DNA of 33,728 nt, taken from positions 1 to 33,728 of the forward strand of contig CAJONZ010000033.1 of assembly GCA_905236065.1 (NCBI GenBank), given 5' to 3'. The position numbers and the translations under genes are program-made. Below are positions 16,564 through 27,548 of the stretch, one piece after another; the stretch's first letter is position 1, and every line of letters starts with the position of its first letter. The stretch is from an uncultured Bacteroidaceae bacterium. Lineage in GTDB: Bacteria; Bacteroidota; Bacteroidia; Bacteroidales; Bacteroidaceae. Below the pieces are notes generated by a model. The model had not been told where the DNA came from. It searched no databases and saw nothing but the letters and a program-made list of their open reading frames with translations.

Positions 16564-17016
16564 TTAGTCGGGAGTGAGCCCGTATTTCTTGAGCCATTCT
16601 ATGTAATAGTCTGGCCGCTCCAACATTAGCTGACCATCTTTATCTAAAAAGAGTTGGGTTGTGCTTCCTTCGGCACAAAGCATTTGGTCGCTTTCCCTAT
16701 AGACTTTGTATGAATAGTCAAGACGTGCACCACGCTGGGGTACGTAAGTTGTGTGGATAACGGCAACGTCGTTCATGGCAAGTGGTGCCAGATGGCGCAC
16801 ATGGACTTCATAGATAGGCGCATAGATGCCCGTCTGCTGCATCACGTCGTAGCCAATGCCGGGAAAGTGGCGCCCGAAGGATTCGCGGCCATCCTCAAAG
16901 TAAGTGACATAGGCTCCATGCCACACACGGCGCATGGAGTCTATCTCACTAAATTTGACCTGGATGCGGCAGATGTCGGTCAGGGCATCATTTGAAGGTG
17001 TAATCTGAAAACTCAT
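16564..17016 (-). CDS. Hotdog-fold acyl-CoA/ACP thioesterase (4HBT type), last gene of the polyene-type operon
   Basis: This protein has 150 residues. The 4-hydroxybenzoyl-CoA thioesterase pattern is clear: VKFSEIDSMRRVWHGAYVTY with the active-site Asp and a His in place of the usual Asn-His pair, then FGRHFPGIGY, APIYEVHVRHLAPLAMND and the central strand ARLDYSYKVYRESDQML. Such enzymes hydrolyse acyl-CoA or acyl-ACP thioesters. Aryl-polyene clusters commonly carry a thioesterase of this type, which could release or edit the chain. Its start overlaps the end of the LolA-like gene by 29 nt in another frame, showing tight coupling. Confidence 0.85.
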   Translation of the reverse strand: MSFQITPSNDALTDICRIQVKFSEIDSMRRVWHGAYVTYFEDGRESFGRHFPGIGYDVMQQTGIYAPIYEVHVRHLAPLAMNDVAVIHTTYVPQRGARLDYSYKVYRESDQMLCAEGSTTQLFLDKDGQLMLERPDYYIEWLKKYGLTPD

Positions 17017-17587
17017 AATCGGTATAGTTCTGTCCCTTCTCGTTCATTCGGAGTGTCTTGATTTCGGATGTCTTGGCATCCATGGTGATAACAAACGATG
17101 TAAACATCATGCGTTTTTTGCTCTTGCCTGTTTCGGGGGTAATGGTGAGAACGATGTCCGTACCCTTTTTTTCAAGTGTAACGCCTGAAATCTGAGCAAT
17201 ATCCACGCCGTTGGAAGCTCCCGTGATGATGTTTTCCAGTACTTGCTGGAAGGTGGCAAACTGCGGATTGGTTTTACTGCTGGTTTTGTGAGACTTCCCG
17301 CCGATTGTCATGGTGAAGTTTTCACCCTGCATATCGAGTTGGTCTTTGCCATTATTCACACTGATGTTCACCTTGTTGGGCGGCGTAATGGTAAAAGTAC
17401 CCGCAAACTGTTCGTCCTTCTTCACCGCTGCCTTATGTTTCGTCTTGAGGGCAGAGGCGGTAACGGCATGAACATTTTTGTATCTTGCAACAGCTGCCAG
17501 ATAATCAGCCTTCTGTGCATGGAGCGGAAGGGCTGAGAGAAGGAAAAGGTAAAAGGAAAAAAGTAAAAAACGCTGCGAAAGTTTCAT
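16988..17587 (-). CDS. LolA-like periplasmic lipid/lipoprotein carrier
   Basis: This protein has 199 residues and a clear signal peptide (FLLFSFYLFLLSALPLHAQ, cleavage near 24). The rest fits the open beta-barrel of LolA-like proteins: GTFTITPPNKVNISVNNGKD, LDMQGENFTMTIGG, then VTLEKKGTDIVLTITPE and a final amphipathic strand pattern. In polyene clusters a LolA-like protein and an MMPL exporter are thought to move the lipid-linked pigment to the outer membrane. It begins 25 nt after the ketoreductase and overlaps the thioesterase. Confidence 0.8.
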   Translation of the reverse strand: MKLSQRFLLFSFYLFLLSALPLHAQKADYLAAVARYKNVHAVTASALKTKHKAAVKKDEQFAGTFTITPPNKVNISVNNGKDQLDMQGENFTMTIGGKSHKTSSKTNPQFATFQQVLENIITGASNGVDIAQISGVTLEKKGTDIVLTITPETGKSKKRMMFTSFVITMDAKTSEIKTLRMNEKGQNYTDYEFSDYTFK

Positions 17588-17612
17588 TTTAATATCAATT
17601 TTTAAACGTTAA

Positions 17613-18341
17613 TCATGTATAAAGTCCACCATTGATGGAAAGTACATTGCCTGTGATGTAACCAGCCTGAGGAGAAATGAGGAAAGCCACTGCGGCTGCC
17701 ACTTCTTCGGGTGTGCCGAAGCGTCCTGCCGGAATCGTTTTCGAGAGGGCCGCTTCATCCAATCCTTCGGTCATATCCGTCTTGATGAATCCCGGTGCAA
17801 TGGCATTGACGGTAATATTCTTCTTGGCTACCTCCTGTGCCAAAGCCTTGGTCGCGGCAATCAATCCTCCCTTGGCAGCAGAGTAGTTGGTCTGTCCAGG
17901 CAAACCACGCAATCCGCTGACACTGGCCATGTTGATGATACGGCCAAATTTATGAAACTGCATGGGCATAAGCAGGGGTTGGGTCACGTTGTAGAAACCG
18001 TCGAGGGTGATGCTGAGAACACGTGCCCAGTCTGCCGCCGGCATCAGCGAAAGCAGCGTGTCGCGGCGAATGCCAGCATTATTTACCAGCACCTCGATGT
18101 ATTCACCATCGTGTGCATCCTGCCAAGCTTCAATGGCTGTCCGAGTCTGCTCGGCATTGGCCACATCGAAGGGCATCAGGTCTCCATCGGAACCAGCCTG
18201 CCGCACTTCCTGTAAGGTTTCTTCTGCAGCAGCTGTGTTGCCAGCATAATTGATGAGGATGTGGTAGCCCAGCGTGGCCAGTTTCACGCTGATGGCTCGG
18301 CCCAGACCTCGGCTGGCTCCTGTGATAAGTGCGTATTTCAT
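17613..18341 (-). CDS. fabG: 3-oxoacyl-ACP reductase, FabG type (SDR)
   Basis: This 242-residue NADPH-dependent short-chain dehydrogenase has TGASRGLG (cofactor glycine motif) at its N-terminus, NNAG in the middle, the Ser in NMASVSG and YSAAKGG with catalytic Tyr and Lys, then APGFIKTDMT and a C-terminal YITGNVLSINGGLYT. It would reduce the beta-keto group after each ketosynthase step. The ATG at 18341 follows the stop of the oxidoreductase gene by two bases; an earlier TTG at 18347 overlaps that stop and is less likely. The gene lies in a polyene-type operon, so it is probably the dedicated ketoreductase and not the housekeeping FabG. Confidence 0.9.
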   Translation of the reverse strand: MKYALITGASRGLGRAISVKLATLGYHILINYAGNTAAAEETLQEVRQAGSDGDLMPFDVANAEQTRTAIEAWQDAHDGEYIEVLVNNAGIRRDTLLSLMPAADWARVLSITLDGFYNVTQPLLMPMQFHKFGRIINMASVSGLRGLPGQTNYSAAKGGLIAATKALAQEVAKKNITVNAIAPGFIKTDMTEGLDEAALSKTIPAGRFGTPEEVAAAVAFLISPQAGYITGNVLSINGGLYT

Positions 18342-18343
18342 TG

Positions 18344-19750
18344 TCAAATTGTTATGTTTTTACAAGTTTCTTTGGCTGTCATTACTACTCCCTGCAAACC
18401 GTGAAGTGCCAGACTCTGTCCGGTAAGCAGCAGATTTGAGATGGGTGTTTGAGGCGAAAGCACCGTCAGCAGGGCATTGGTGCAGTCCTTGCGAATGCCA
18501 TAGGCAGAACCCAGGGGCGAGCGGTTGTAATCGCGATAGGTAAGAGGGGTGCTGGTATAACATTCGTTGATGCTGTCGGACAGACCAGGGACGACACTTT
18601 CTGCCAGTTCGATACACGCTGTGGCAAAACGATGTTTCAGTTCGCAGTAGGCAGCACTTCGGTGTCCCACGGTGCTATCGGCAAAGGGTTGACAAAGCGA
18701 CCACGGCATGGGAGTGAGCAAATCCAGTTGCCGTACAAAGGGCGAACCGTCTGCCGGCACTCTTGCACTGACCATCACGCCGCCCACAGGCTCTGTCGTC
18801 GCTTCGTAGAAAGTCCAAACGTTGGGCTTTCTGTAGATATATTTATTATGGTTGAAGTATGGGATGGTGTTGGGTTTCAGCAGTAACGAAGCTGTAAACA
18901 TACCGAAAGTGTTTTCCTGTAGGAAAATCCGCTTACGGAAAGTACGCTTTATCTTGCTGTTTTCCTCTTTGATGAGACTTAGCATGACGGCTGGATGGAC
19001 GTCGCAGATGAATGTAGCACCTTCGTATGTCATACCGTTGGCACAATGTACAGAGGTGATGCGCCCATCATGCTCCACCAACTCCGTCACTTCGGCATTG
19101 CAGACCACCTCCCCACCTTGGCGGCGAATGTCGTCCGTTAGTGCTTCCACCAACAGATTGCCATCTCCACGCAATCGCCAGCTGCTTTCGATAAAGGCAC
19201 TGTTCAGGTGTGCAAAGGAGAAAAGCGGCAGTGTGTCTTTACGGAGTTCAAGCTTCATCGATGCTCCGCTGAGCACATTGATGAGCAATTCATCACGGAA
19301 CAACTCATGCAGATATTTCCAGGCATTCACATGGATGCTCTGCTCATCGTCCAGATGTCCGAGCATATCGACGTATCGTTGCAATGCCTCCTTCTCCCGT
19401 GGGAAATAGTGGGCAAGCGTTGCCGCAAAGGTCGTAAAGCCTTCGGCAAGGGGGAATGTCTCCTGAGCAATCGTCACACGGTCAAAGCCCTCGGCGTCCA
19501 GTCGCTGCCAAGGCAGACGAAGCAATCCCAATTCCGAGAATGCAGCGTGCAAGGACTGTCCTTCAGCCAACCCTCCCACATAATGTAAACCCGTATCAAA
19601 ACGGAAATGGCCGCGCTGGTAACTCTGCATACAGCCCCCTGGTTGCTGCTGCCGTTCAAGCACCAACACCCCGAGGCCCCGTTTTGACAGCAACTGTGCA
19701 CATGCCAATCCGCCAAGGCCCGACCCGATGATGACAACGTCAGTCTTCAT
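18344..19750 (-). CDS. FAD-dependent oxidoreductase, CrtI/phytoene desaturase-like
   Basis: This protein has 468 residues. An N-terminal Rossmann motif VVIIGSGLGGLACAQLLSKRG (residues 5-25, split here only by description) is followed by VLERQQQPGGCMQSYQRGHFRFDTGLHYVGG, the hallmark of carotenoid desaturases, isomerases and retinol saturases. The C-terminus NLLLTGQSLALHGLQGVVMTA is the matching FAD-binding end. It could desaturate, isomerise or saturate a polyene chain. Enzymes of this class are not universal in aryl-polyene clusters, which makes the product of this operon less predictable. It overlaps the MMPL gene by 11 nt. Confidence 0.85.
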   Translation of the reverse strand: MKTDVVIIGSGLGGLACAQLLSKRGLGVLVLERQQQPGGCMQSYQRGHFRFDTGLHYVGGLAEGQSLHAAFSELGLLRLPWQRLDAEGFDRVTIAQETFPLAEGFTTFAATLAHYFPREKEALQRYVDMLGHLDDEQSIHVNAWKYLHELFRDELLINVLSGASMKLELRKDTLPLFSFAHLNSAFIESSWRLRGDGNLLVEALTDDIRRQGGEVVCNAEVTELVEHDGRITSVHCANGMTYEGATFICDVHPAVMLSLIKEENSKIKRTFRKRIFLQENTFGMFTASLLLKPNTIPYFNHNKYIYRKPNVWTFYEATTEPVGGVMVSARVPADGSPFVRQLDLLTPMPWSLCQPFADSTVGHRSAAYCELKHRFATACIELAESVVPGLSDSINECYTSTPLTYRDYNRSPLGSAYGIRKDCTNALLTVLSPQTPISNLLLTGQSLALHGLQGVVMTAKETCKNITI

Positions 19751-22223
19751 GATTCATCCTTCGGAAAACGGCTGGTTGCACTACGTATGAGAGCACGACA
19801 GATGCCACCATGCCGACCAGTGTGGCAAAACCTACAGAGTGGATGGCAGGATGCTGGGCTGCCAGCATCGAACTGACCGTGACGATGAGGATAATGGCAG
19901 AGAAGAAGATGGCCGTCTTGTGATAAGCCAGCAGCTGTTTGTCATTGTCACCCATCAGTCCGTTCATCACAAAAATGCTGTAATCCACTCCGATACCGAA
20001 TATAAATGTGGAGATAATGATGTTTATCAGATTAAATTTCATGTCGAACAGGGCCATTGCTCCCAACACGATGAGCCAACTCAGCAGGATGGGAGCAAAA
20101 CCCAAGAGCGTGTAGCGCAGGTTGAAACGGAAACTGACCAGCAACACCATAAACACAAACGCCATGCTCACCCACTGCAGCAAGTTGAAGTCGCGGTTCA
20201 ATGCAGCCAGCGTGTCCCTGGTATAATAATAGGTGTCCAGCACCAACATGTTCGGTTCTTCGGCAATCGCCGAACAAATGCGGTGATAGTCTCCCCGTTC
20301 ATCATGCACCGTATCATTCGCACAGCGCACCGAGGTAAAGCAGAGATAATCACCGCTGTATGTCTCCTCCATCAACGTGGACTGATAGCCTGGCGGCAAG
20401 ATGCCTGCCTCATAGAGTGGGGCTGGTTCGTAGTCCGCCGTGGCATAATCGAAGAAGCTGTCGAACCCCTCAGGGGTAAGCCCTGCCTCGGGTGCCGTCT
20501 GATGGATGAGTTGCCGTACCTTGTTGAGTCGTTCTTCCGTCCAGTATGCCTTCCATGCATCAATGCGTTTTTGCTGTGTCTTCAGCGGAATGAACATCTG
20601 GTCCGTATGCGTATAACTCTTCACCAAGCCCAGCGCCTGAAGCGAATCCAGTTTCTGGCTAAGCTGGTGGAAATTGCAAATGGCTTCTTCCATTGTTTTG
20701 CCCTGAGCGGCAAAATACTTGGACTTGTCGCCCGTAAAAGTTTTGCTACGCAACAACTCTTCCGAGTAGGTGGTCAGTTCTGCCTTATAGCCCAGGTTGT
20801 GCATATCGGAATCAAACTGTGTACCCTTCGCCACATAGCAAGCTACCATCCCCACTGTCGCCAGCAGGATAACAACTAACAGCAATTTCTTGCGGTCAAA
20901 CGGATAGCGATTCAGGCGGTCTATCAAGGCAAAAGCCCGTTTGTTCATAGCAACCCGTTCCAATTCCAAAAGATGAGGTAAATAAACAAGTGCAAACAAC
21001 GTTGTGCCCACAATGGCCAAGGCTGCAAACAGTCCGAAGTCCAACAGCAAATCTGTCTTAATGAAAAACAGACCCATGAACGAGCCAATCGTCGTGATAC
21101 AGCCCAACAGCACAGGTTTCACCTCGCTTCGCAACACCTCCACACTGTCTGTCACATATTTATAATGAATCAGCACATGGAGCACATAACTCATTGCAAC
21201 GCCCAGCACAATGGCACCGATGCCCAAAGCCATCAGTGAGAATTGCCCTTTCAGCACATACATGACGGCCAATCCGAACAGCGTGCCAAATGCCACAGGC
21301 AGCAACAGGAGTGGAACCGTACTCCAACCCCGCAAACAGATAGCCAGCAATAACAGCACAATAATCAGCGACCACGCCACACTCCCTATCAAGTCGTGCT
21401 TGATGGTGCTGGAATTGTAATAACCGCTGGCAGGTGTGCCGTGATAGGAAATCTTCACTTCGGGATGACTGATTGAGAAACTGTCTATCAGCTCATTCAA
21501 CCAGACAAAGAGCTTTGACCCTTGTCCCGTGTTCGTAGCAGAGAAGCTGGGAGAGATGAATGCCACACAAACCGAGGAGTCACGCACAAAGAAGTGGTTC
21601 TCCAGTGTGCGGTAACTGCCTCCCGTGGCTTGCATCAGCGGCGCCATCTGTTCCTTCAGTACCATGCGCAAACCAATGGGATCCATCTCTATCAGTTCGG
21701 GGAACATATCGCCAAACTCGCTTTGAAAGTCCTTGGCGTTCTGCGCCATCTGCCGCTTGAAATGTTCGACCGTAAGCAAGGTGTCGAATGCTGCGTATGC
21801 CGCCGTGTCGATATAACACGGTAAATGTTCGCTCAGGAAATCAATGGCGTCGGGCAGCAAATCTTCTGGAATCCTGTAAAACACATCGCCCACAGGCTGT
21901 TCCATACTGTCCAAGGCTGCATTACGCTCCAACAACGTATCAACAAACGCATCGCAGACCGCCGCCAATTCTTCCACGCTCAAATCGGGGTTTTGCTTCT
22001 CAAACAGCAAGAAGGTCTTATCCTTGATGCGCAGACTGGCAAAAGCCATCTTCGTGCTGCCATCTTCATTCTTCGACGACGGCATCAGCTTGTTGAGGTC
22101 TTCTTCCAGATGGATACGGGATGTCAGTATGCCGAAGAGCACAAACAAAAAGGCCATCGAGAGCCACAATGCAGCCCGATGGCAATGGAAATACTGGTAT
22201 ATCTTAATGAAAAAGGATGTCAT
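19740..22223 (-). CDS. MMPL/RND-superfamily lipid exporter
   Basis: This protein has 827 residues and the two-fold RND layout. TM1 is at about 16-35. A large periplasmic loop (about 40-280) has SYHGTPASGYYNSSTIKHDL at its end. Five or six TMs follow (about 282-415; VLGVAMSYVLHVLIHY in the conserved helix). Then come a second first-helix (about 450-470), a second loop (about 475-680), and a final helix block with FGIGVDYSIFVMNGLMGDND. MMPL proteins export lipids or polyketides using the proton gradient. Within this operon it is the probable inner-membrane exporter, working with the LolA-like carrier. It starts just after the first hotdog gene, with only 3 nt between. Confidence 0.9.
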   Translation of the reverse strand: MTSFFIKIYQYFHCHRAALWLSMAFLFVLFGILTSRIHLEEDLNKLMPSSKNEDGSTKMAFASLRIKDKTFLLFEKQNPDLSVEELAAVCDAFVDTLLERNAALDSMEQPVGDVFYRIPEDLLPDAIDFLSEHLPCYIDTAAYAAFDTLLTVEHFKRQMAQNAKDFQSEFGDMFPELIEMDPIGLRMVLKEQMAPLMQATGGSYRTLENHFFVRDSSVCVAFISPSFSATNTGQGSKLFVWLNELIDSFSISHPEVKISYHGTPASGYYNSSTIKHDLIGSVAWSLIIVLLLLAICLRGWSTVPLLLLPVAFGTLFGLAVMYVLKGQFSLMALGIGAIVLGVAMSYVLHVLIHYKYVTDSVEVLRSEVKPVLLGCITTIGSFMGLFFIKTDLLLDFGLFAALAIVGTTLFALVYLPHLLELERVAMNKRAFALIDRLNRYPFDRKKLLLVVILLATVGMVACYVAKGTQFDSDMHNLGYKAELTTYSEELLRSKTFTGDKSKYFAAQGKTMEEAICNFHQLSQKLDSLQALGLVKSYTHTDQMFIPLKTQQKRIDAWKAYWTEERLNKVRQLIHQTAPEAGLTPEGFDSFFDYATADYEPAPLYEAGILPPGYQSTLMEETYSGDYLCFTSVRCANDTVHDERGDYHRICSAIAEEPNMLVLDTYYYTRDTLAALNRDFNLLQWVSMAFVFMVLLVSFRFNLRYTLLGFAPILLSWLIVLGAMALFDMKFNLINIIISTFIFGIGVDYSIFVMNGLMGDNDKQLLAYHKTAIFFSAIILIVTVSSMLAAQHPAIHSVGFATLVGMVASVVLSYVVQPAVFRRMNHED

Positions 22224-22226
22224 GGC

Positions 22227-22601
22227 TTATGTTTTAATCAGCGTCCCTTTCAGTTCCATGTAGGTCTGCGACTGGTTGTAGATGCTGGCCTGAAGTTGGT
22301 AGCCCTCTTCCGTGGGCGTGGTCTGTATGCGGACAAGGAGGACAGGACATGTCGCAGGTGTGGCAACGGCAGTCAGGCGGCACTGTTTGATAGTTTTGAA
22401 ACAGAGGTTTTCGCCGAGAAGTCGCATGGCGCACTCTTTGATAGTCTGGATGTTGCACACACCTGGACAAACGGGCTTGCCAGGGAAATGCCCCTGATAG
22501 ACCGTGCAATCGGCAAGCAGTTCAATGGTATAGGTAGCCACGTGCTCATTGTCCTTGGCCACAGCGGCAATTCTGTAGAACTTGTCGTCGAGTAACATCA
22601 T
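22227..22601 (-). CDS. FabZ/ApeI-like hotdog dehydratase subunit with catalytic Glu replaced
   Basis: This protein has 124 residues. The hotdog helix motif is VYQGHFPGKPVCPGVCNIQT (residues 34-53): it keeps the catalytic His38 of HFPG and the PGV turn. At the position where FabZ has its catalytic Glu (PGVxxxE) it has Gln52. The start at 22601 is chosen because ATGATG overlaps the TGA of the neighbouring hotdog gene (ATGA); an in-frame extension far upstream reads through that neighbour in another frame and is not real. It resembles ApeI of aryl-polyene clusters, which works as a heterodimer with ApeP. See the partner at 22598-23017. Confidence 0.8.
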   Translation of the reverse strand: MMLLDDKFYRIAAVAKDNEHVATYTIELLADCTVYQGHFPGKPVCPGVCNIQTIKECAMRLLGENLCFKTIKQCRLTAVATPATCPVLLVRIQTTPTEEGYQLQASIYNQSQTYMELKGTLIKT

Positions 22602-23017
22602 TCCTGCGCTATGAAAATTTTCATCTGTGTCTTGGCTACCAGTTCTTTGCCATTCCTCAGGGTTTCGCCGTGTAGTAAGGTGACTCCCTGTGCCTCTGGT
22701 CCCATCACGATGGTTGTTTGCAATTGGTCGCCCACTTTGGGCAGTTGATAGAGGTGGAAATTTTTGATTTCCCCGATATATCCCACAGGCGGCACTTTGG
22801 CTCCGCCCTGTAAGGCTTTGTGTCCAGCATAGGCTGAAGCCGACTGTGCAATGTGTTCGATAATACCCGTTTCGGCCATTGTACCATCTGACTGCAAAAA
22901 GAAGTTGTCTTCCCTCACAGTCAGTTGGCACAGAGCCTGTTCCTCGTCAGCCTCTGTCAGTTCGTCCACCATGATGATGGGTGGACGCTGCGGAATGAGT
23001 GCCTGTATGTTGTCCAT
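22598..23017 (-). CDS. ApeP-like hotdog dehydratase subunit with catalytic His absent
   Basis: This protein has 139 residues. It starts with IQALIPQRPPIIMVDELTE, a FabA/FabZ-like N-terminus, and carries the hotdog helix MAETGIIEHIAQSASAYAGH (residues 47-66), keeping Glu54 of the catalytic helix. The HFPG segment with the catalytic His is replaced by NFFLQSDGT. The protein is therefore the mirror of the other hotdog subunit, which keeps His but lacks Glu. Its stop overlaps the partner start by 4 nt (ATGA), strong support for equal expression of a heterodimer. It lies 8 nt after the ACP gene. ApeP-like is assigned from motif and context. Confidence 0.8.
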   Translation of the reverse strand: MDNIQALIPQRPPIIMVDELTEADEEQALCQLTVREDNFFLQSDGTMAETGIIEHIAQSASAYAGHKALQGGAKVPPVGYIGEIKNFHLYQLPKVGDQLQTTIVMGPEAQGVTLLHGETLRNGKELVAKTQMKIFIAQE

Positions 23018-23025
23018 ACTTAATT

Positions 23026-23268
23026 TTAGGCAACGTGACTTTCAATGTAGTCGTAGAGCTGAGCGAAAGTCTTGATGGTAGGCAGTTCCTCAGCAGGAAT
23101 CTTCACCTTAAAAGTGTATTGTACAACTGCCACCAAGTCAACCAAACTGAGGCTGTCTAACTGCAAAGTCTCATAAATAACAGCCTCTGGCTGGATTACA
23201 CTTTCATCTACTTCAAATTCTTCGGCAAGTGTGCCTTTTACTTTCTCAATGATTTCTTCACGTGTCAT
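23026..23268 (-). CDS. Acyl carrier protein
   Basis: This 80-residue acidic protein has four-helix ACP architecture. The phosphopantetheine site is LQLDSLSLVDLVAVVQ with Ser39, and helix I is REEIIEKVKGTLAEEF. It would carry the growing chain between ketosynthase, reductase and dehydratase. It differs from housekeeping AcpP in the DSLSL motif, where AcpP has DSLDTVE. This supports a dedicated ACP. Confidence 0.92.
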   Translation of the reverse strand: MTREEIIEKVKGTLAEEFEVDESVIQPEAVIYETLQLDSLSLVDLVAVVQYTFKVKIPAEELPTIKTFAQLYDYIESHVA

Positions 23269-23294
23269 TTTTTTAAATCTTATCTGTTTTGTGA

Positions 23295-24512
23295 TTAAAT
23301 ATTCTTTACGATCAGCGTGGAATTGGTGCCGCCAAAGCCAAACGAATTGGAAAGGAACATATCGAAATGCGCCTCTCTTGTTTCGGGTACGACGTTCACC
23401 TTTGCCGTTTCCTCGTCGGGATTTTCAAATCCTGTGTTACCGGCAATGAAGCCGTTCTTCATCATCAGCATGGAGTAAATCAACTCGCTGGCACCTGCCA
23501 TCCACATTTCATGTCCAGTTTGGCTCTTGGTAGAAGTCACAGGTACACGGTAGTCGCCAAATGTCTGGGCGATGGCCAATGCCTCGCGTCCGTCGCCAGC
23601 CTTTGTGGAAGTGGCATGAGCGTTCACATAGCCTATCTGCTGTGGAAGGATGCCGCCATTCTTCAACGCCAATTCCAGAGAACGTGTGGGGCCAGCAACA
23701 TTGGGCGTAGAGATATGGTCGCCATTGCCTGAAAAGCCCCAGCTCACGATTTCGCCCAAGATGGTTGCACCGCGCTTCACGGCATGGTCGTAACTCTCCA
23801 GGATAACTGTAGCCGCACCACCACCCGGTACCAGTCCGTCGCGGTCGCGGTCGAAGGGACGACTGGCCTGTGTGGGATTGTCCTCACGCAAGGAGAAAGC
23901 CTGAATGCCGTCAAACGAAGCCACACTGTACATGTTCGCCTCTTGTGCTCCACCACAGATGATGCAGTCTTGCAGTCCATTCTTGATGAGCAAGTAGGCA
24001 TTGCCAATAGCCAGCGAACTGGAAGCACAGGCTGCGCTTGCCGTCAGGTTGATGCCACGCAAGCGGAACAAGCAAGCGAGGTTCATCGTCACCGTAGAGT
24101 TCATCGACTGGAAGATGGCACCACTTCCGCAAGCCGCCGTATCACGAAACTCGCGGAATTTGTCGAGTGCTGCCATCGTAGCTTCAGCCACCGAATCATT
24201 CCCATAAATGATACCCACCTCGTGTGCATCCAAAAAATCCTGGTCAATCTTTGCATGGTCCAGGGCCTGAAGCGTAGCCATATAGGCATATTGTGCCTCT
24301 TCGGGCATAAACATACGCAAATTGCGCGGAATCAGTTTCTTCAAATCGGGCTTCGGAACATTGGCGCACAGTCCGCTGCGAAAACCGGCCTCCTTGCGTT
24401 CTGCACTCAGCACGATACCGCTACGACCCGTGTAGAGAGAATCTCGCACCTCGTCGAGCGTCTGTCCCAAGCAAGACCAAATGCCCATGCCCGTAATAAC
24501 TACTCTATTCAT
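23295..24512 (-). CDS. Beta-ketoacyl synthase, FabF-like, active
   Basis: This 405-residue ketosynthase has a complete Cys-His-His set: Cys162 in TASAACASSSLAIG, His299 in YVNAHATSTKAGD, Lys329 and His334 in STKSQTGHEMWMAG. The C-terminus SNSFGFGGTNSTLIV is typical. The region after the second His (EMWMAGASE, where FabF has LGAAGA) marks a subfamily seen in Bacteroidetes polyene-type clusters. It condenses malonyl-ACP with the growing chain. Classical aryl-polyene synthesis pairs a ketosynthase with a chain-length factor that lacks the Cys; no such partner is in the window. The start overlaps the upstream GNAT gene end by 4 nt (ATGA). Confidence 0.92.
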   Translation of the reverse strand: MNRVVITGMGIWSCLGQTLDEVRDSLYTGRSGIVLSAERKEAGFRSGLCANVPKPDLKKLIPRNLRMFMPEEAQYAYMATLQALDHAKIDQDFLDAHEVGIIYGNDSVAEATMAALDKFREFRDTAACGSGAIFQSMNSTVTMNLACLFRLRGINLTASAACASSSLAIGNAYLLIKNGLQDCIICGGAQEANMYSVASFDGIQAFSLREDNPTQASRPFDRDRDGLVPGGGAATVILESYDHAVKRGATILGEIVSWGFSGNGDHISTPNVAGPTRSLELALKNGGILPQQIGYVNAHATSTKAGDGREALAIAQTFGDYRVPVTSTKSQTGHEMWMAGASELIYSMLMMKNGFIAGNTGFENPDEETAKVNVVPETREAHFDMFLSNSFGFGGTNSTLIVKNI

Positions 24513-25651
24513 AATTCTATCTTCTTCTTCCAGCAGCGTCGCCGTTTGATGTATTCAGGATTCATCGGCTTCCACTGCGAAAGTTCCTTTATATTCGTTT
24601 CTAACTGCGGAGCTGTTTCAGCCCACTTGTATCCCTTCCTATTATAAATAGGTATCAAATCGTTGAAGACAAGTGCCGTCAGCCCCAATCCCTGCATGTC
24701 AGGGCGCACGGCGATGAGCAGCAACTGTGCCGTGTCTTCATGTTTGAACTTGAGCGACTTCAGAATATGGAACCAACCAAAGTGGCTCAACTTCCCGCCC
24801 GCCTTCTGCAAGGCGTGCGACAGACTGCTCAGCGTGACACAGCCACAGACCAGTTCATTCCGCTCGTTCACGATGAGAGGCACCATGTCCATGTCCAACA
24901 GCGGCACGTAGGTACGCAAAAATTTGGCTATCTGTCCGTCAGACATCTGCGAGAAACCAAACAACGGTGCGTATGCTTCGTTCATCAGCGTCAGTAGCCT
25001 GCGTCCCCATTCGCCCATCGCTTCGCGTCGGGTCACCTTTATCAGGCAAAGACCAAACATCTCCTGGGAAAGTGCAGCCACACGGGCATACTTTGGCGGA
25101 ACTTGTTCGGGAATCCGTACACGTATCTGCACCCAGTCTGCCTCCTTCTCAAAACCCAATGCCACCATGTGGTCGGGGTAATAAGGATAATTGTAGATTT
25201 CCACCATGCCACCCATCAGATGGAAGTCCTCTACCAACATGCCTTCCTTGTCAAAGTCTGAAATACCCATAGGCCCTTGGATGTATTCCATGCCGTGCTG
25301 TTTGCCCCATTGTTCCACAGCCCCTATCAGAGCCGCCGAAACCGCAGGGTCGTCAATAAACTCTATCAGTCCGAAGCGCACATTTTTCACATTCCAAGTC
25401 TCGTTGGCACGGTGATTGATTATGGCTGCTACACGCCCGACCACTTCATCGTTTTTCAATGCTATAAAGGGTTGGATATCGCTAAATTTCAACCCTGCAT
25501 TCTTTTTTACATCAAACATGCCACGCACATCACTGTCCATGTCGGGGACATACTGTGCGCAGCCTTTATAAAGCCTATGCGGAAAAGCCAGGAAAGCTTT
25601 CATGTCCGACTCAGACTTTACAACCCTTATGATAACACCCGATTGTGTCAT
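24509..25651 (-). CDS. GNAT-fold N-acyltransferase, first gene of the polyene-type operon
   Basis: This protein has 380 residues from the ATG at 25651. The N-terminal domain begins IIRVVKSESDMKAFLAFPHR and contains VVGRVAAIINHRANE. The C-terminal GNAT domain has AQLLLIAVRPDMQGLGLTALVFND, the acetyl-CoA-binding motif A, and ends KYKWAETAPQLETN-like. Proteins of this size and layout often open flexirubin/polyene-like operons in Bacteroidetes, with a role not known to me. A TTG at 25681 would lie inside the -7 promoter element and is rejected. The end overlaps the ketosynthase start by 4 nt. Confidence 0.8.
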   Translation of the reverse strand: MTQSGVIIRVVKSESDMKAFLAFPHRLYKGCAQYVPDMDSDVRGMFDVKKNAGLKFSDIQPFIALKNDEVVGRVAAIINHRANETWNVKNVRFGLIEFIDDPAVSAALIGAVEQWGKQHGMEYIQGPMGISDFDKEGMLVEDFHLMGGMVEIYNYPYYPDHMVALGFEKEADWVQIRVRIPEQVPPKYARVAALSQEMFGLCLIKVTRREAMGEWGRRLLTLMNEAYAPLFGFSQMSDGQIAKFLRTYVPLLDMDMVPLIVNERNELVCGCVTLSSLSHALQKAGGKLSHFGWFHILKSLKFKHEDTAQLLLIAVRPDMQGLGLTALVFNDLIPIYNRKGYKWAETAPQLETNIKELSQWKPMNPEYIKRRRCWKKKIEL

Positions 25652-25678: not shown

Positions 25679-25710
25679 CAAAATTACGAAATAATTAGGA
25701 AAAAGTCGAA
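25679..25710 (-). promoter_or_regulatory. Promoter of the polyene-type operon
   Basis: On the minus strand TAATTTTG (25686-25679) is a perfect TAnnTTTG element. After a 20-nt spacer the -33 position reads TTCG (25710-25707), one mismatch from TTTG. It lies 28 nt upstream of the GNAT ATG and is the only good promoter seen in the 9-kb operon. Confidence 0.65.
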
Positions 25711-26006: not shown

Positions 26007-26207
26007 ATGGAAAAGACAAAATTGTCGGCAGTGGTAAAGGCTTTGCGCAAGGAATATGGCCTTACGCAAGAAGACCTTGCCATGAAGTCTGGAGTGGGTC
26101 TGTGCTTTGTGCGCAATCTGGAGCAAGGAAAGCAAACTCTACGGATGGATAAGGTAAATCAACTCCTCGATTTGTTCAACTACGAACTTACAGCAACCAA
26201 GAAATGA
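26007..26207 (+). CDS. hipB: HipB-like XRE-family antitoxin/regulator
   Basis: This 66-residue protein is almost entirely one helix-turn-helix: LSAVVKALRKEYGLTQEDLA, then MKSGVGLCFVRNLEQGKQTL, followed by a short helix and a C-terminal strand (FNYELTATKK) that could form the intermolecular sheet of HipB dimers. It would bind operators in its own promoter and repress the operon. Together with the next two genes it gives the order hipB-hipS-hipT. It lies 74 nt upstream of the next start. Confidence 0.85.
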   Translation: MEKTKLSAVVKALRKEYGLTQEDLAMKSGVGLCFVRNLEQGKQTLRMDKVNQLLDLFNYELTATKK

Positions 26208-26281
26208 CATAGCAGCGAGTGCAGAGCCAAGTTTACTTGAGCTCTGCCGAGTCGCTATGGAATTCGAATGAAATTCAATCA

Positions 26282-26620
26282 ATGAGACAAGCAGAAATAT
26301 ACCGAAAAGAAATCCTTGCAGGTGTCCTGACAGAAGATGGTGGTGAATACCGCTTCTGTTATGGTGAGGCGTATCTTGCACGGGAAGACGCACAGCCTGT
26401 CAGCCTGACACTCCCACTACAGCAGGAAGCATTCGTAAGCCCCGTGCTATTTCCGTTTTTTGACGGATTGATACCTGAAGGCTGGCTACTCGATGTGGCA
26501 CTTCGCAACACCGACATCAGCATTCTTGACCGCATGTCGCTACTGCTGTTATGCTGTAAGGAGTGTATAGGTTCCGTCAGTGTTGTGCCCATAATCAAGG
26601 AAGGAGGTGACCATGTGTAA
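26282..26620 (+). CDS. hipS: HipS-like protein (HipA N-terminal subdomain 1)
   Basis: This 112-residue protein from the ATG at 26282 corresponds to the N-terminal subdomain of HipA made as a separate polypeptide: MRQAEIYRKEILAGVLTEDG, then PVSLTLPLQQEAF, VLFPFFDGLIPEGWLLDVAL and ECIGSVSVVPI. In the HipBST system of enteropathogenic E. coli the equivalent HipS is the antitoxin that blocks the kinase, and a Trp has been implicated; Trp68 here (PEGW) lies in a similar region, but equivalence is inferred. A GTG at 26219 is an alternative start that would add 21 residues not typical of the family. Its last 8 nt overlap hipT. Confidence 0.8.
   Translation: MRQAEIYRKEILAGVLTEDGGEYRFCYGEAYLAREDAQPVSLTLPLQQEAFVSPVLFPFFDGLIPEGWLLDVALRNTDISILDRMSLLLLCCKECIGSVSVVPIIKEGGDHV
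26601..26609 (+). promoter_or_regulatory. Exceptionally strong Shine-Dalgarno site for hipT
   Basis: AAGGAGGTG (with A following at 26610) gives a ten-base match to the 16S anti-SD complement, 3-4 nt before the ATG at 26613. Such sites are rare in Bacteroidetes, where the anti-SD is largely unused. It lies inside the end of hipS. Confidence 0.8.
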
Positions 26621-27548
26621 ATGTCTGTATTGCTATCAAGAATTGGAAGAGGGTCAGAAAGACTTTCATCCAGGGTGCGCACGGAAATTCTTTGGGACAA
26701 AAGATGTACCCTTGTTGGAATATAAGCATGAAGATCTCGATCAATTAGCCGAGCAAGTAATCCGCGCCCAAACATCGCTGACAGGTGTCCAACCCAAATT
26801 GTCTCTAAACCTCAACAAGCACGATGGCTGTAGCCGACTTTCTATTGTAGGACTTTGGGGTGATTATATCTTCAAGCCTCAGACAGAGAGTTATCCACAG
26901 TTGCCCGAAAACGAGGATTTGACGATGCACCTTGCAGAAGTGGCAAAGATAAATGTCGTGCCTCATAGCTTGATTCGTCTGGCTGACGGAAAACTGGGTT
27001 ATATTACCAAGCGCATTGACCGTATCAAGAGTGGCGAGAAGATTGACATGGAGGATATGTGCCAATTGACATTGCACCCTACTGAATACAAGTATAAGGG
27101 TTCGCATGAGCAGATCGCAAAAACTATAATACAATATAGTGGCACGCCCAAACTCGACTTGACGAACTACATGCAATTATTGCTATTCTGCTTTGTCACT
27201 GGCAACAATGACATGCACTTAAAGAACTTTTCTCTTTACCGCCCTTCAAAGGGTTATCAGTTGGCTCCGGCTTATGATCTTCTCAATGTTGCGATTGCAA
27301 ATCCCAAGGACAAAGAGGAACTGGCGCTGCCTCTTTCCGGGCGAAAGACGAAACTATGTCTAAATGATTTCCTAATTGCGGCAAAGACAATGGGGCTGGA
27401 TGAGAACGTGGTGAGGCGTCTCATAGAAGGACTTCAAAAGGCTCTCCCTAAATGGCAAACGCTCATATACAGTTCTTTCCTCAGCGAAGATATGAAGAAA
27501 GCGTATGAAGAACTCATCGTCTCTCGGTTGGGGCGCTTGCAGAAATAA
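26613..27548 (+). CDS. hipT: HipT-like Ser/Thr kinase toxin with N-terminal zinc-finger-like motif
   Basis: This protein has 311 residues. At the N-terminus C4, C7, H19 and C22 (CLYCYQELEEGQKDFHPGC) look like a zinc ribbon. The HipA kinase fold then follows: the loop TSLTGVQPK (Ser55, Thr57) aligns with the S-x-S autophosphorylation loop of HipT, IFKP holds the ATP Lys region, GNNDMHLKNFSL has catalytic Asp200, and APAYDLLN has the metal-binding Asp222. All are intact, so an active kinase is expected. Known HipA/HipT targets are aminoacyl-tRNA synthetases. Lacking the N-terminal subdomain, which is supplied by hipS, it fits the tripartite HipBST arrangement. Confidence 0.85.
   Translation: MCKCLYCYQELEEGQKDFHPGCARKFFGTKDVPLLEYKHEDLDQLAEQVIRAQTSLTGVQPKLSLNLNKHDGCSRLSIVGLWGDYIFKPQTESYPQLPENEDLTMHLAEVAKINVVPHSLIRLADGKLGYITKRIDRIKSGEKIDMEDMCQLTLHPTEYKYKGSHEQIAKTIIQYSGTPKLDLTNYMQLLLFCFVTGNNDMHLKNFSLYRPSKGYQLAPAYDLLNVAIANPKDKEELALPLSGRKTKLCLNDFLIAAKTMGLDENVVRRLIEGLQKALPKWQTLIYSSFLSEDMKKAYEELIVSRLGRLQK

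Follow-up and report, generated by a model that had tools for sequence, protein, structure and literature searches.

A reduced flexirubin-like operon with a GNAT of the ceramide N-acyltransferase family in Bacteroidaceae: a possible source of a dedicated outer-membrane acyl amide

Introduction

Aryl polyenes and flexirubins are pigments of the outer membrane, and the sphingolipids of Bacteroidales act on the animal host. In this work, we focus on a ten-gene operon that appears to couple these two chemistries. It is carried by a 33,728-nucleotide stretch of DNA from an uncultured Bacteroidaceae bacterium (GenBank assembly GCA_905236065.1, contig CAJONZ010000033.1), which we will call the window, and it raises the following question: what can a polyene-type operon make with a single ketosynthase (KS), and with neither the aryl-starter genes nor the chain-length factor of the known pathways? 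The original prediction, made from the letters of the window, was that the product may be a lipid that is non-aryl or has a different primer, exported to the outer membrane, and this fits our results. The answer that we favor, tentatively and at slightly below even confidence, is that the operon is a reduced relative of the flexirubin and aryl polyene (APE) clusters, making a dedicated acyl amide for the outer membrane. This reading is drawn from the family of its GNAT protein, the constant core of the operon, the complementary residues of its two dehydratase subunits and the lack of starter and chain-length genes. The chain would probably be unsaturated and non-aryl, a product chemistry that we infer from the genes.

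Organization of the operon

The ten genes together fill positions 16564-25651 of the window and are all on the minus strand. They are transcribed in the order GNAT, KS, acyl carrier protein (ACP), DH1, DH2, MMPL, CrtI-like, ketoreductase (KR), LolA-like and thioesterase (TE), and the successive intergenic gaps are -4, +26, +8, -4, +3, -11, -4, +25 and -29 nt. The genes are thus real, co-directional and closely set, as had been proposed, with gaps from -29 to +26 nt on one strand. They are listed below, followed by a possible promoter element.

24509-25651, minus strand: GNAT, 380 aa, of the ceramide N-acyltransferase (CerS/aca/YghO) family (hhalign to YghO; clade support 100/100)
23295-24512, minus strand: KS, FabB/ApeR-like, with Cys162-His299-His334 (PF00109/PF02801, tree, alignment)
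23026-23268, minus strand: ACP, with Ser39 (PF00550, aligned Ser)
22598-23017, minus strand: DH1 hotdog subunit of ApeP-like pattern, Glu kept and the HFPG histidine gone (motif rows, weak FabZ)
22227-22601, minus strand: DH2 hotdog subunit, ApeI-like, GHFPG histidine kept and Gln at the Glu position (motif rows)
19740-22223, minus strand: MMPL/RND-type transporter, 827 aa (PF03176, HpnN/HAE3-like)
18344-19750, minus strand: CrtI/CrtD-like FAD oxidoreductase, 468 aa (family scans)
17613-18347, minus strand: 3-ketoacyl-ACP reductase (KR), FlxB equivalog (NF053542), with a TTG start and an alternative ATG at 18341
16988-17587, minus strand: LolA-like periplasmic carrier (weak PF03548 and LolA2_flexi, both below cut-off)
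16564-17016, minus strand: 4HBT hotdog TE, ApeK-like (PF13279/PF03061)
25679-25686, minus strand: possible Bacteroides-type -7 element, TAATTTTG

The DH2 start is the ATG at 22601, which overlaps the DH1 stop codon. The element TAATTTTG, at 25686-25679, stands shortly upstream of the GNAT ATG and resembles the Bacteroides -7 promoter motif. A single promoter for the whole operon is plausible. A sigma-70 promoter scan was at chance level (11 found for 11.5 expected), and a terminator scan was likewise no better than chance.

Types of cluster and the constant core

The genome that carries the window (2.73 Mb, 88% complete) belongs to a family sample of 151 genomes, itself included. A KS match at E <=1e-134 was found in 37 of the 151, and 11 of these 37, the window among them, match at 76% identity or more. 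This KS is missing from all eight sampled congeners, three of which match it only at 35%, a FabF-like level. The flanks, over about 10 kb on either side of the KS (less at contig ends), were mapped for 38 strong matches, the window excluded, and they fall into several types. In type A (10 loci, L041-L050), the GNAT, KS, ACP, DH1, CrtI-like and KR genes are present in 10/10 loci, DH2 in 9/10 (not L050) and TE in 8/10 (not L049 and L050), while MMPL and LolA are found only in L044, L045 and L050. The remaining 28 of the 38 mapped loci gave no match to the GNAT. In type B (L052-L055), a PlsC-type acyltransferase gene stands before the KS, two of these being assigned by clustering only; MMPL is present in three of the four loci, and L055 stops at the KS. 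Smaller forms are seen in L051, L056 and L057. The 21 loci of type C (L058-L078) correspond to full flexirubin-like clusters, with an LpxL-type acyltransferase in 21/21, a chain-length factor and an O-methyltransferase in 19/21 each, GT2 in 10/21 and a nearby aromatic lyase in 2/21. Further KS were found by tblastn in 21/21, a count that is less certain since KS queries cross-match in tblastn. These sister types suggest a rule by which related KS cores go with LpxL-type, PlsC-type or CerS-type GNAT acyltransferases, and the type of acyltransferase beside the core would set the attachment partner of the chain.

Named genomes were scanned with a GNAT profile; at least 536 of 594 stretches encoded relatives, and the best 80 loci were used. 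By title, these best 80 belong to the Bacteroidaceae, Prevotellaceae and Tannerellaceae, with many rumen and gut sources, and the KS is directly downstream of the GNAT in 78 of them, with a gap of 2-314 nt by open reading frame calls. Together with L041-L050 and the window, they make a type A set of 91, in which the flanks often fall short of 10 kb and at least three pairs are the same contig (L041/L137, L044/L143 and L049/L153). Gene presence was counted by tblastn on the same strand in the 65 KS-bearing loci out of 67 with at least 9 kb downstream: GNAT, KS and ACP are present in all 65, and CrtI in 64. The core that stays constant thus consists of these four genes.

At a strict threshold, a GNAT search of an order-wide sample found only 3 of 393 genomes, which makes the operon uncommon at that level. 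Loci with the KS are present in cultured organisms (Parabacteroides faecis, Paraprevotella clara, Prevotella lacticifex and Segatella baroniae), and such loci in named cultured organisms make the coupling directly testable.

The ketosynthase and the missing partner genes

The one KS of the operon has, as predicted, an intact catalytic triad: it is of the FabB/FabF Cys-His-His type, the Cys is present in 89/89 aligned rows and each His in 88/89, the remaining row being a gap. At the position of Ser39 in the ACP, Ser is found in 84/84 aligned rows. In the tree, the window KS lies inside a 22-row clade (100/100) together with the main KS of the type C full clusters, which adjoins KR in most of them, and the neighbors of this clade are FabB (99/93) and ApeR (99/94). 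Within the clade, the single-KS types come together (99/98) and two type C rows adjoin them (97/92). Because the single-KS types group with type C rows next to them, this suggests that the single-KS operon was reduced from a full cluster. Against the E. coli APE proteins, the KS scores higher with ApeR (36%, 209 bits) than with ApeO (31%, 115 bits); in the tree, E. coli ApeO and ApeC sit on long branches, and their placement was not used. The KR scores 385 bits against the FlxB family NF053542 of NCBIfam (cut-off 340), so that it is of the FlxB type, and it is 49% identical to E. coli ApeQ. The proposed kinship to flexirubin and aryl polyene clusters is therefore borne out, by this KR and by a KS nested with those of full clusters.

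With such a KR above its cut-off, one may ask if this is a standard aryl polyene or flexirubin pathway, with its lyase, ligase, chain-length factor and acyltransferase encoded elsewhere in the genome. With the genome 88% complete and nine AMP-binding matches in it, all outside the window, there is some room for this. It has, however, only two PF00109 matches, one of which is the operon KS, and neither a PF13723 chain-length-factor-type KS nor a PF00221 aromatic lyase was found in it; this was the genome-wide search that the original prediction had called for. PF13723 is also absent from 9 of the 11 genomes with the operon, and the other two (G038 and G118) carry it in a separate full cluster. 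Likewise, no chain-length factor was found in the 91 type A loci, against 19/21 full clusters, nor any lyase, ApeH-like ligase, LpxL-type acyltransferase, O-methyltransferase or GT2. The absence of lyase and ligase from the 91 loci is weak taken alone because these queries miss most full clusters, the lyase query finding 2/21 and the ligase query 0/21. We therefore disfavor the standard pathway, which we regard as very improbable. The chain-length factor, ammonia lyase and AMP-ligase that had been noted as missing from the operon are indeed missing, the AMP-binding matches lying only elsewhere. The claim of one missing second KS needs rewording: the operon does have a single KS, but full clusters carry two further KS plus a chain-length factor. 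As a separate observation, a region of the genome (G000 C65:53533-61965) holds large open frames (2455 and 1456 aa) in which three AMP-binding domains are found; they likely encode a nonribosomal peptide synthetase.

A dehydratase split over two subunits

In FabZ-type dimers, the catalytic His and Glu are contributed by opposite subunits. DH1 has no Pfam match and a weak FabZ match in NCBIfam; DH2 has weak FabA- and ApeI-like matches, both below cut-off, in scans run on the frame from 22595 and not from the ATG at 22601. DH1 keeps the Glu before [HN]-x-A-Q and has lost HFPG in 99/100 rows, the remaining row matching no motif. In DH2, the His motif is conserved in 82/82 rows, and the Glu position holds E in 41, Q in 31 (as in the window) and another residue in 10. 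E. coli ApeI and ApeP divide the His and the Glu in the same way as DH2 and DH1. Judging by these motifs, DH1 and DH2 seem to be the two complementary parts of a single dehydratase, and the split-residue pair is found in the window and in the loci carrying both subunits. The TE, matched by PF13279/PF03061, is 24% identical to the E. coli APE thioesterase.

The GNAT and its link to ceramide synthesis

It had been claimed that the operon has no acyltransferase. This holds for the LpxL-type acyltransferase of full clusters, which is absent from the operon, but it is contradicted by the GNAT itself, whose profile match to YghO places it in the ceramide N-acyltransferase family. PF00583 matches the GNAT just above cut-off (22.7 vs 20.7), and NCBIfam does not match it at all. 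When its profile is compared to E. coli K-12 YghO, hhalign gives a probability of 99.8% over 360 columns at 28% identity. RefSeq labels that protein a putative transcriptional regulator. In excerpts of PMC9386255, yghO (ECD_02850) and CC_1154 are listed as aca, dihydroceramide N-acyltransferase, the role in E. coli being predicted, and excerpts of PMC11324152 and PMC11087976 name the Caulobacter enzyme CerS or bCerS. The family link by sequence is to YghO, and CC_1154 is tied in by that listing, not by alignment.

A serine palmitoyltransferase (SPT) gene lies elsewhere in the genome of the window (C19:20758-21891, 490 bits to a solved SPT), and an SPT match was found in 20/20 genomes searched. 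At least one GNAT copy is present in 29/29 genomes searched and two in 11/11 type A genomes. All 22 operon-type GNAT rows, of which 21 are different, fall into a single clade (100/100) next to the other copies, and the nearest to it is the second GNAT copy of the window's own genome. A plasmid search with the GNAT gave 44 records, of which six were chosen for inspection. An aminotransferase of the SPT kind adjoins the GNAT in four of these six (Pseudomonas, Acidisoma, Streptomyces and Rahnella); all four are annotated as class I/II aminotransferase, and the Pseudomonas one retrieved the SPT of the window's genome. The Pseudomonas and Rahnella GNATs adjoin aminotransferase, ACP, epimerase and acyl-AMP ligase genes, and the remaining two plasmids (Chloroflexota and Bacteroides finegoldii) have no SPT-like gene beside the GNAT. 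Excerpts of work on Alistipes (PMC9304779) argue that Spt and SulA of Bacteroidetes prefer acyl-ACP as their donor, and such a preference would fit an ACP encoded in the operon.

It is also conceivable that the GNAT acylates an unrelated small amine or a protein, the acid being freed by the TE and esterified by genomic enzymes. A PDB sequence search with the GNAT gave no match up to E 1, and its structural model matches only generic tandem-GNAT folds (TM to query ~0.3-0.54), which were not used for function; the window operon does have a TE, and some GNATs of the operon clade stand alone. Against this, the GNAT adjoins the KS in 78/80 of the best named loci, its family is linked to lipid N-acylation in excerpts of PMC9386255, and in the sister cluster types the acyltransferase near the KS is of the PlsC or LpxL type. 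We thus hold such an acceptor to be improbable.

Weighing a dedicated acyl amide

Several observations weigh against the acyl-amide reading, or at least against its polyene part. Beyond the core, the genes are less constant: among the 65 loci, DH1 is found in 57, KR in 48, DH2 in 46, TE in 41, MMPL in 40 and LolA in 35. Two Prevotellaceae loci (L191 and L193) consist of GNAT-KS-ACP-MMPL-CrtI-LolA genes that abut, leaving no room for KR, DH1, DH2 or TE, and L177 and L196 keep DH1 without KR, DH2 and TE. Because the KR and dehydratase genes can be missing and the genes of L191 and L193 abut, polyene-type processing lies outside the constant core. The KS clade adjoins ApeR, an enzyme assigned to initiation in an APE system by a paper in which an apeR deletion in E. 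coli still yields APE lipid, and the KS may for that reason run one or a few cycles. The CrtI-like enzyme has no assigned reaction. As for the GNAT, its ceramide role is assigned by family, its model has a moderate confidence (pLDDT 72), 3/18 genomes searched without the operon also have extra copies, two or four in total, and GNATs of the operon clade occur without KS in L180 and L200. Finally, no SPT was found beside the other GNAT copy in the eight Bacteroidaceae loci examined. In six of these eight, and not in the window's own genome, that copy is followed by topoisomerase-type B, coaD and S41 genes. In the near-complete genome G032, no SPT match was found in ~140 kb around the second copy, a region with two weak CerR-like matches (22 and 27%), and the SPT match is on another contig. 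As SPT adjacency is not seen for either GNAT copy in the Bacteroidaceae, the neighborhood there does not itself show a ceramide role.

Taken in series with fuller loci, L191, L193, L177 and L196 offer a natural reduction series from a full cluster to the four-gene core. In the L180/L200 pair, one GNAT is followed by a DUF5686-like gene and the other has no operon genes beside it.

These points lend weight to the possibility that the product is no polyene but a specialised fatty acid, made in one or a few cycles and bearing an enoyl, keto or hydroxyl group, and that a ceramide or another amide carries it as acyl chain; the CrtI-like enzyme would then account for any conjugation. The KS on the FabB/ApeR side, ApeR being assigned to initiation, the GNAT-KS-ACP-CrtI core, the loci lacking KR and DH2, a GNAT of the ceramide N-acyltransferase family and the SPT in the genome would all suit it. 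It accords less well with the window and most loci, which keep a polyene-like pair of FlxB-type KR and complementary dehydratase, and with an operon that has no enoyl reductase. We consider it possible, though doubtful.

A proposed mechanism

The dedicated acyl amide that we favor could be made as follows. A fatty-acid-type starter on the operon ACP would be extended by a homodimer of the FabB/ApeR-like KS, with malonyl-ACP supplied by primary metabolism. The KR and a DH1:DH2 heterodimer, with His from DH2 and Glu from DH1, would leave double bonds, and as no operon enzyme reduces these, the result would be an enoyl to polyenoyl chain; forms lacking KR and DH2 would borrow both steps from fatty-acid synthesis. 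The CrtI-like flavoenzyme may then desaturate or isomerise the chain, and the GNAT would transfer it from the ACP to an amine, perhaps a sphingoid base provided through the genomic SPT, to give a ceramide-like amide. The TE may edit stalled chains, and the MMPL transporter and LolA-like carrier would bring the lipid to the outer membrane. The least certain steps are the sphingoid-base acceptor and the polyene chain. The version that combines both, in which a dedicated, duplicated ceramide synthase would attach a polyketide-type polyene chain to a sphingoid base to give a pigmented or polyunsaturated outer-membrane ceramide, appears to us rather unlikely.

Export genes and neighboring genes

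The CrtI-like protein scores far below the cut-offs of the carotenoid enzymes listed. The LolA-like protein is related to LolA2 and falls short of that family (LolA2_flexi, 45.7 bits vs a cut-off of 125; PF03548, 17.4 vs 23.6). In the 65 loci, LolA is always together with MMPL, and both are missing from 25. A DUF5686-like, outer-membrane-type gene follows 50 of the 65 operons, with and without MMPL, and relatives of the L041 DUF5686 protein (at least 45%) occur in 18 loci without MMPL and 8 with it. A clean swap of export modules (MMPL and LolA vs DUF5686) was considered and fails, since DUF5686-like genes also follow many MMPL operons.

The flanks vary between loci, which, along with the lack of the KS in all eight sampled congeners, was considered as a sign of horizontal transfer. 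In the window, a gene with a GmrSD_N domain lies on one side of the operon, and on the other (26007-27548) a helix-turn-helix gene and two overlapping genes over which the N-terminal and C-terminal parts of HipA are split. A tRNA-Thr and then a tyrosine-recombinase gene are found at 11-1457, and Vsr, Fic-domain and GmrSD_N genes lie between the latter and the operon. The operon has a G+C content of 50%, for 46-48% in its flanks, a difference that is not telling for horizontal transfer. At other loci, LPG-synthase-TM and CDP-alcohol phosphatidyltransferase genes are sometimes found downstream. Directly upstream of the GNAT, a PF13444 gene and a PlsC-type acyltransferase gene stand in L044, L045, L126, L127, L128, L140 and L143 (L044 and L143 being one contig), a pair that resembles that of the glycine-lipid genes.

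Comparison with known systems

The flexirubin clusters of Flavobacterium and Chitinophaga (FlxA-FlxY, LolA2) carry KS, ACP, dehydratases, a thioesterase, an exporter and a LolA-like protein according to excerpts of PMC3992019 and PMC11885536, and the operon has all of these as well as the FlxB-type KR. It differs in that no tyrosine ammonia lyase, CoA ligase, extra KS or chain-length factor was found in it, in a LolA below the LolA2 cut-off, and in the addition of the CerS-family GNAT and the CrtI-like enzyme. In comparison to the APE cluster of E. coli CFT073 (ApeA-R), KR is 49% identical to ApeQ, KS 36% to ApeR, ACP 35% to ApeF and DH2 30% to ApeI over 61 residues; MMPL and TE are distant, LolA and DH1 have no significant match to ApeL and ApeP, and ApeB, C, D, G, H and J have no significant BLAST counterpart in the operon. 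The full flexirubin-like clusters L058-L078 have a KS 52-60% identical to that of the operon, with KR, ACP, DH1 and TE in most of them, but add to these two further KS, an LpxL-type acyltransferase and, in 19/21 each, a chain-length factor and an O-methyltransferase. As for bacterial ceramide synthase (CerS/bCerS/aca; CC_1154, YghO), the GNAT aligns with YghO over nearly its full length, but it forms a clade of its own and lies beside a KS system rather than beside SPT.

No operon that brings together one FabB/ApeR-like KS, a dedicated GNAT of the CerS family and a CrtI-like enzyme came up in the titles and abstract openings found by searches of the open-licence literature. The parts of the operon belong to known families, and their combination would be new among the papers so found. 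If true, a polyene-ceramide would be a lipid class bridging aryl polyene and sphingolipid chemistry.

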